Shown here: in pieces, positions 976-1,385 of the stretch
How positions within the stretch are numbered: the stretch's first letter is position 1
How the letters are laid out: every line of letters begins with the position of its first letter
Virus record (IMG/VR): IMGVR_UViG_3300001450_000150
Coordinates: 1 to 31,295 of that record
Length of the DNA: 31,295 nucleotides
Source: a virus
Reading direction: 5' to 3' (one strand)
Made by a program: the position numbers and the translations under genes
The notes under the pieces: model-generated
The model's input: only the letters and a program-made list of their open reading frames with translations
Databases searched by the model: none
What the model was told of the DNA's origin: nothing

Positions 976-1047
976 GAGTTAAGTACGAGAATCCGGTATA
1001 TATAGAGGTACCGTAAACCGGGGTCTGAGGTGCATGGGAAATATTTT

Positions 1048-1075
1048 TTGCAAAACTCTCTCGAGAAGCTATAAT
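1048..1075 (+). promoter_or_regulatory. Sigma-70-like promoter
   Basis: TTGCAA (1048-1053) and TATAAT (1070-1075) are spaced by 16 bp. Predicted initiation is near 1082, leaving a leader of only about 5 nt before ATG 1087. It probably also drives the tRNA-Cys-like gene that starts 2 nt after the coding region. Confidence 0.7.
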
Positions 1076-1086
1076 AGGTTTTTACG

Positions 1087-1308
1087 ATGATGATACGCAA
1101 AGCCATGTTAGAGTTCAAGTTAGAATACGCAATCGATTTAGATGACTCAGGTATGGTAGAGAGAGGTTCTCATTTAATAGAACAAGAATTAGAGCGAATC
1201 CTGGATAATGGAAATATAGGTGACTATATAAAGATCAACGAAGAGGTAGATGTAACAGAGGAGCAAGTTGAGTCAACATATACCCATCTTAATATCGCAG
1301 GATTATAA
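1087..1308 (+). CDS. Small acidic protein, 73 aa, unknown
   Basis: This acidic, probably helical protein begins MMIRKAML and has a Glu/Asp-rich body (IEQELERILDN around residues 32-42; EEVDVTEEQVEST near the C terminus). Two consecutive ATG codons (1087, 1090) could serve as start. The first is 5 nt after the transcription start predicted from the promoter at 1048-1075, so no room exists for a Shine-Dalgarno. The stop codon is 2 nt before the tRNA-like gene, suggesting a joint transcript processed at the tRNA 5' end. No family is recognised. Confidence 0.6.
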   Translation: MMIRKAMLEFKLEYAIDLDDSGMVERGSHLIEQELERILDNGNIGDYIKINEEVDVTEEQVESTYTHLNIAGL

Positions 1309-1309
1309 T

Positions 1310-1385
1310 GCACGTCGACCGAGCAAGTGAACGGGGTGGTCTGCAAAACCATTGAAGCAGGGGGCGGTACCCTGGACGTGCTCCA
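1310..1385 (+). tRNA. tRNA-Cys-like gene (anticodon GCA), encoded CCA
   Basis: The 76-nt element folds as a full cloverleaf. It has a perfect 7-bp acceptor stem (GCACGTC 1310-1316 with GACGTGC 1375-1381), a 3-bp D stem (1319-1321 with 1332-1334), a 5-bp anticodon stem (1336-1340 with 1348-1352), the loop CTGCAAA with anticodon GCA at 1343-1345, a 5-nt variable loop, and a perfect 5-bp T stem (1358-1362 with 1370-1374). It ends TCCA, with discriminator T and encoded CCA, as expected of tRNA-Cys. Some core bases are odd: the T-loop is GGCGGTA rather than TTCGANN, position 8 is G not T, and the D-loop lacks the G18-G19 pair. It is tRNA-derived with high confidence; whether it is a functional Cys acceptor is less sure. 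Confidence 0.8.

Follow-up and report, generated by a model that had tools for sequence, protein, structure and literature searches.

The pair between G18 and Psi55 is a near-universal element of the tRNA elbow, and few tertiary features in biology are as strongly conserved as the D-loop/T-loop contact at the elbow. The ribosome, RNase P, RNase Z and modification enzymes all recognise this contact (PMC4810234). Here we describe a phage gene that is very probably a functional translation tRNA-Cys(GCA) of a structural subclass with an A18:G55 elbow and rewired core contacts. With canonical bacterial tRNA-Cys it shares the 7/5 acceptor-T branch, the GCA anticodon, U73, CCA and an atypical 15:48 combination (G15:G48 in E. 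coli tRNA-Cys, PMC9976931), but it lacks U8, G18G19 and T54/U55/A58, carries C15:G48 and has rewired 16:59 and 54:58 contacts. In E. coli tRNA-Sec, C16 contacts C59 (PMC7609411), and these two positions covary in the phage class; unlike that class, however, tRNA-Sec retains the canonical D/T-loop contacts, and its long variable arm, UCA anticodon and long acceptor-T branch are absent from our tRNA. The tRNA-Pyl of Desulfitobacterium hafniense is similar in having G8 and in the loss of G18, G19 and T-Psi-C (PMC7609411), but differs by a short D-loop, a single linker base, an elongated anticodon stem and a CUA anticodon.

In Type II mitochondrial tRNAs the D- and T-loop consensus is not conserved either, but these lose the D/T-loop contact, whereas the phage class appears to replace it with conserved, coupled ones. 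The specialised tRNA-Gly of Staphylococcus aureus is a possible analogue as a tRNA set apart from the normal translation factors; it is, however, confined to glycine and to a cell-wall role, whereas the phage class spans nine or more isotypes and is complementary to canonical sets. Phage tRNAs known to escape anticodon nucleases (PMC10264068, PMC11555353, PMC12409363) are also phage-encoded and altered relative to host tRNAs, but the changes described lie mainly in the anticodon arm or at single D-loop bases and do not amount to a coupled elbow replacement. A coupled change at 54:58 and 15:48 is known from eukaryotic tRNA-Ala with A54/A58 and R15/A48 (PMC7566577), although the abstract mentions no G18:Psi55 change and gives those pairs as absent from bacteria and archaea.

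The window, that is the whole stretch of DNA analysed, comes from a virus record and comprises 31,295 bases of a phage of the contractile-tailed, T4-like kind; baseplate wedge subunits, a clamp loader and a dUTPase are recognisable in it. The tRNA gene, its parts and its upstream surroundings are:

1047..1075, plus strand: sigma-70-like promoter (TTTGCA, 17 nt, TATAAT), upstream of the ORF at 1087-1308 and of the tRNA
1087..1308, plus strand: ORF of 73 aa that stops 1 nt before the tRNA
1310..1385, plus strand: elbow-variant tRNA-Cys(GCA) gene with encoded CCA; cloverleaf in the sequence, conserved in relatives, ARAGORN-negative
1310..1316, plus strand: 5' strand of the acceptor stem (positions 1-7); GCACGTC pairs with GACGTGC at 1375-1381, 7/7
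1317..1318, plus strand: positions 8-9, GA, the canonical U8 being replaced; position 8 is G in 70, A in 16 and T in 4 of 90 distinct members
1319..1334, plus strand: D-arm; stem CCG/CGG of 3 bp, A13.A22 mismatch, loop motif CWAGNGAA common to nine isotypes
1336..1352, plus strand: anticodon arm; stem GTGGT (1336-1340) with ACCAT (1348-1352), 5/5, one G-U
1353..1357, plus strand: variable loop TGAAG of 5 nt, last base G48; proposed reversed Levitt pair C15:G48
1358..1374, plus strand: T-arm; stem CAGGG (1358-1362) with CCCTG (1370-1374), 5/5
1375..1385, plus strand: 3' strand of the acceptor stem, discriminator U73 (1382) and CCA (1383-1385); U73 in 17/17 Cys members

The stretch 1310-1385 thus has the 7-5-5 stems, the 7-nt anticodon loop with U33 and the 3' CCA of a general tRNA cloverleaf, together with the anticodon GCA (1343-1345) and discriminator U73 of a tRNA-Cys; its anticodon loop, CTGCAAA, is identical in all aligned Cys members. 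An earlier sequence-only reading of this DNA had described fully paired acceptor, anticodon and T stems, a 3' end TCCA, the anticodon GCA, a T-loop GGCGGTA, a G at position 8 and a D-loop without GG, and all of this is indeed found. The D-loop, AGCAAGTGAA, is numbered A13 G14 C15 A16 A18 G19 T20 G20a A21 A22, with position 17 absent, and the T-loop at 1363-1369 reads G54 G55 C56 G57 G58 T59 A60. From the elbow consensus of G18G19 with T54-U55-C56 only C56 and G19 are kept. Instead, A18-G19 occurs with G55-C56, the combination that defines the elbow variant, and A16/T59, G54/G58 and C15/G48 follow the pattern of the class (16:59 complementary, 54:58 either AU or GG, C15 with G48). The window contains a single perfect 7/3/5/5 cloverleaf with U33, and none arose in 60 dinucleotide shuffles; the folding energy of the tRNA alone is unremarkable (z -0.96) and uninformative.

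The gene lies between the 73-aa ORF on its 5' side, for which no PHROG match was found, and the next ORF on its 3' side; the 73-aa ORF and the tRNA probably share one transcript. The upstream part that is conserved in relatives is the stretch 1001-1083, which contains the promoter-like site, and in one related contig (L017) its counterpart sits just before a tRNA-Met followed by the tRNA-Cys. Elsewhere in the window, the region 2464-2967 encodes a nucleotidyltransferase that resembles heptose 1-phosphate adenyltransferase (phrog_7878) and lies next to glycosyltransferase-like ORFs, which suggests phage-encoded sugar metabolism.

Standard gene finders miss the gene. ARAGORN, which the sequence-only reading had named as a check, calls no tRNA in the window, and Rfam at gathering thresholds reports nothing there; at relaxed thresholds the best match in the tRNA clan, to tRNA-Sec, reaches 25.6 bits, the cut-off being 47. 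We rejected an assignment to tRNA-Sec (RF01852) on that score and on the GCA instead of UCA anticodon, the 5-nt variable loop and the 7/5 branch. Allo-tRNAs (8/4 or 9/3) were likewise rejected, given the 7/5 lengths and the stem covariation.

The gene has many relatives. When IMG/VR was scanned with the D-arm alone, leaving the T-loop free, more than 119 contigs matched, mostly with the anticodon GTT (Asn) and the Asn discriminator G73, and the T-loops of these Asn matches read GGCAGTA, GGCGGTA or AGCGTTA. Scans with additional patterns recovered members for Val(TAC), Ile(GAT), Phe(GAA), Glu(TTC), Gln(TTG), Met(CAT) and His(GTG), so that, with Cys and Asn, the same D-loop/T-loop type spans nine isotypes, although its invariance is partly by construction at the several loop positions that the D-loop baits fixed. 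The variable loop of the Ile members is one base longer than that of Cys and Val, and CCA is encoded in about half of the members. An alignment of 70 distinct members has 97.1% paired cells against 57.0% after shuffling and 422 double-change cells against 119, which count sequences and not evolutionary events, kinship making them overstate the number of independent changes. The covariation score is 0.97 versus 0.20 in shuffles, and the signal vanishes when the partner columns are shifted by one to three positions. The acceptor and T stems are 99.7-99.8% paired (the acceptor helix 99.8%, with many compensatory changes), and covariation is seen at all seven acceptor pairs and at three of the five T-stem pairs.

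Coupling extends to the elbow. Among 1088 distinct cloverleafs, U55 goes with G18 (as GG) in 892 of 896 cases and G55 with A18 in 186 of 187, the test for the string 'AG' being a loose one, as AG can arise in the loop by chance. Outside the D-loop type that was searched for, G55 occurs with A18G19 in 96 of 97 tRNAs of the same loci. Near-minimal pairs show the same switch: for tRNA-Phe, AATCAGGTGAA with ATCGTTA (LR745206) against AATCAAGTGAA with AGCGTTA (L255), and for tRNA-Met, GTGGTC with TTCGAAT in phage D3 against GTAGTA with TGCAAAT in L079, a Mesorhizobium phage tRNA-Met being like that of phage D3 (GG/TTC versus AG/TGC in L079). From the coupling of U55 to G18 and of G55 to A18 it therefore appears that the elbow pair G18:Psi55 has been replaced by A18:G55 with G19:C56 kept, a geometry that we deduce from the coupling.

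Other core contacts seem to have been rewired together with this pair. Position 16 pairs with 59 in nearly all of the 70 members (A-U in 41, U-A in 28, other in 1), both states occurring within Val, Phe and Glu, whereas only 28% of the canonical tRNAs at these loci have a Watson-Crick combination at 16:59. With few exceptions 54:58 is G-G or A-U, in place of T54:A58, and nearly all members have the T-loop GGCRGWA or AGCRTWA. G48, which was part of no search pattern, accompanies C15 in all 90 members, so that the usual Levitt pair is reversed, whereas position 48 is mostly C or U in the canonical tRNAs compared. The elbow thus appears not simply to have been lost but to have been rebuilt with other coupled contacts (A18:G55, 16:59, 54:58 and C15:G48), through which the tRNA would fold into its L-shape.

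Among the 97 G55 tRNAs outside the searched D-loop type we also observed a second, simpler class, found for instance in L165, L298, L305, L058 and L306, with T54-G55-C56-R57-A58 and A18G19 but otherwise canonical loops; nearly all amino acids are represented when this class and the other G55 tRNAs are combined. A numbering of the D-loop of our tRNA as A17-G18 was rejected, as A18-G19 with position 17 absent fits better in comparison with this T54-G55 class. A tRNA in L028 combines A18 with U55 (D-arm ACTCAGATAGTAGAGT, T-loop TTCAATC) and is possibly an intermediate between the two elbow types.

If hundreds of phage tRNAs of many isotypes do have such a natural, coupled replacement, this would show that the elbow can be rewritten without loss of function. 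The tRNA would be charged with cysteine and used at Cys codons. Since it has neither U54 nor U55, and other bases stand in place of U8 and of most uridines in the D-loop, it should carry no rT54, Psi55 or s4U8. A possible benefit, and the most likely one, would be a stable tRNA that does not rely on the elbow-modification enzymes of the host. The same changes may also weaken recognition by host factors or by tRNA-targeting nucleases that read the D-loop or the elbow; AriB, for instance, reads U16-U17 of the D-loop (PMC12409363). Both freedom from host modification and weaker recognition by tRNA-targeting defences are plausible. The tRNA may be adapted to evade modification or cleavage, as the sequence-only reading suggested, escape from modification being the part that follows from the replacement of rT54, Psi55, s4U8 and most D bases. 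As a broader and tentative idea, the class may represent a parallel phage tRNA architecture, with A18:G55 as a second elbow code that is transferable between isotypes, independent of Psi55, rT54 and s4U8, poorly seen by elbow-reading host factors and defence nucleases, and yet serving the ribosome. It would offer a direct test of why phages carry tRNAs, whether because of dependence on host modification or as an escape from tRNA-targeting defence.

The strongest competing explanation, less likely but a serious alternative, is that these are translational tRNAs whose elbow was changed by drift alone and was spread by gene exchange between phages, with no benefit regarding modification or nucleases. 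Coupled swaps can arise neutrally, and elbow variants stand beside canonical tRNAs in the same clusters, so the phages do not need variants throughout. However, both variant classes are without U55 and G18, and the class of the window replaces U8, U54 and most D-loop uridines as well, which is a consistent direction.

That the variants serve translation is indicated by their identity bases and by the tRNA sets in which they occur. The discriminators are isotype-correct (G73 in 25/25 Asn, U73 in 17/17 Cys, A73 in 18/18 Val, 7/7 Ile and 16/16 Phe members), and those of the Asn, Cys, Ile and Phe variants match the published identity table (PMC9976931). In 104 distinct loci that have five or more canonical isotypes each, span at most about 15 kb and take their canonical genes from ARAGORN calls only, the isotype of a variant was also present as a canonical gene in just 5 of 110 cases, while permuting the variant sets among loci gave a mean overlap of 38.5 and a minimum of 24 in 10,000 permutations. 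For instance, Asn is the one amino acid without a canonical gene in L025, and Phe the one in L199, and each locus has a variant for it; in L308 canonical Asn, Val and Tyr are missing, the first two being present as variants, and L314, with no canonical Phe or Ile, has a G55 tRNA for each of them. Translational tRNAs would show such complementarity, and decoys, regulators or side-pathway tRNAs would not. The reading of our gene as a functional tRNA-Cys is based on these identity bases and this complementarity, on the covariation of stems and elbow and on the conservation of the gene.

A chargeable tRNA that escapes EF-Tu through its odd elbow and feeds a reaction other than translation has a precedent in the specialised tRNA-Gly isoacceptor for cell-wall synthesis in Staphylococcus aureus (PMC4810233), and the tRNA-Cys is the sole tRNA found in some relatives; three related contigs (75, 122 and 132 kb) carry the variant and have no Rfam-tRNA match at all. 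Such a role is improbable, since a side pathway would not predict that nine isotypes replace canonical isoacceptors in near-complete sets, and no candidate transferase was identified among the lightly annotated neighbours of the tRNA. Even less credit can be given to a decoy or regulatory mimic, a role also raised in the sequence-only reading, that would bind a synthetase, a nuclease or modification enzymes without decoding. The elbow does depart at the positions that most tRNA-binding factors read, but the encoded CCA in part of the members, the correct discriminators and the complementarity to canonical sets, in which the relatives replace exactly the isotypes missing among the canonical tRNAs of a locus, all speak against it.

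In at least seven related phage contigs, reached via the neighbouring proteins, the tRNA-Cys is kept at 86-95% identity while the flanks have diverged and no longer align well. The anticodon loop, U73 and CCA are invariant in these Cys relatives, and the acceptor stem varies with compensation. In L014 and L017 the tRNA-Cys begins directly after the CCA of a canonical tRNA-Met, and two other relatives, 119 and 200 kb long, carry a small number of canonical tRNAs (Met, Thr, Arg and Leu, or Leu and Thr) but no canonical Cys. In favour of a decaying gene with intact stems, or of a sequencing error, one could cite that the loop is off the tRNA consensus and that ARAGORN and Rfam miss the gene. Both explanations are excluded: close relatives have the same odd T-loop, stems and elbow covary in the 70 distinct relatives, hundreds of contigs and several isotypes show the conserved, coupled loop sequence, and the flanks are less conserved than the gene.

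Together with the tRNA-Cys of the window, the members apparently form a large phage tRNA class that has so far escaped description; our search of open-access papers turned up no account of A18:G55 or of the class. ARAGORN calls only 4 of 226 copies, which would mean, if the elbow replacement is true, that phage tRNA sets are systematically under-counted. Bacteria carry the class rarely, in tRNA arrays and mostly in Verrucomicrobiota, and no match was found in the plasmids searched. We rejected bacteria as its main home: of 145 genomes drawn from the phylum of one Verrucomicrobiota match, the class is present in just one, which is the very genome that served as the centre. In two of six bacterial genomes checked the pattern match reads as a canonical tRNA-Cys. 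Three Verrucomicrobiota MAG contigs (L293, L298 and L305) have arrays of 6-14 tRNAs in which canonical and elbow-variant genes are mixed; the array of L293 is flanked by bacterial-looking genes (sulfatase-like and lipoate ligase-like) and may be a mobile or a chromosomal array.

Cultured carriers make the class testable, among them Synechococcus phage S-N03 and relatives and Microcystis phage Mwe-JY26. In S-N03 an unannotated elbow-variant tRNA-Val is found at L320:9001-9073, and it is also present in five related records. The GenBank record of Mwe-JY26 (L140, PP438418.1) has an unannotated Asn member in a cluster without an annotated Asn; four unannotated G55 tRNA-like genes were found in this genome (at 837, 3424, 3996 and 4531), with Pro, Thr, Asn and Glu anticodons. 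An unannotated G55 tRNA-Pro-like gene also lies within the annotated tRNA cluster of Mesorhizobium phage Cp1R7A-A1 (L323:3246). Two further observations concern viral contigs with tRNA genes. On a 200-kb contig ARAGORN calls a tmRNA gene with the tag ANDEQFALAA beside the tRNA cluster (L314:4183-4598, minus strand), and on a 359-kb contig (L312:10370-10447) we found a tRNA with a CTA anticodon, Pyl according to ARAGORN, that is possibly an amber suppressor.
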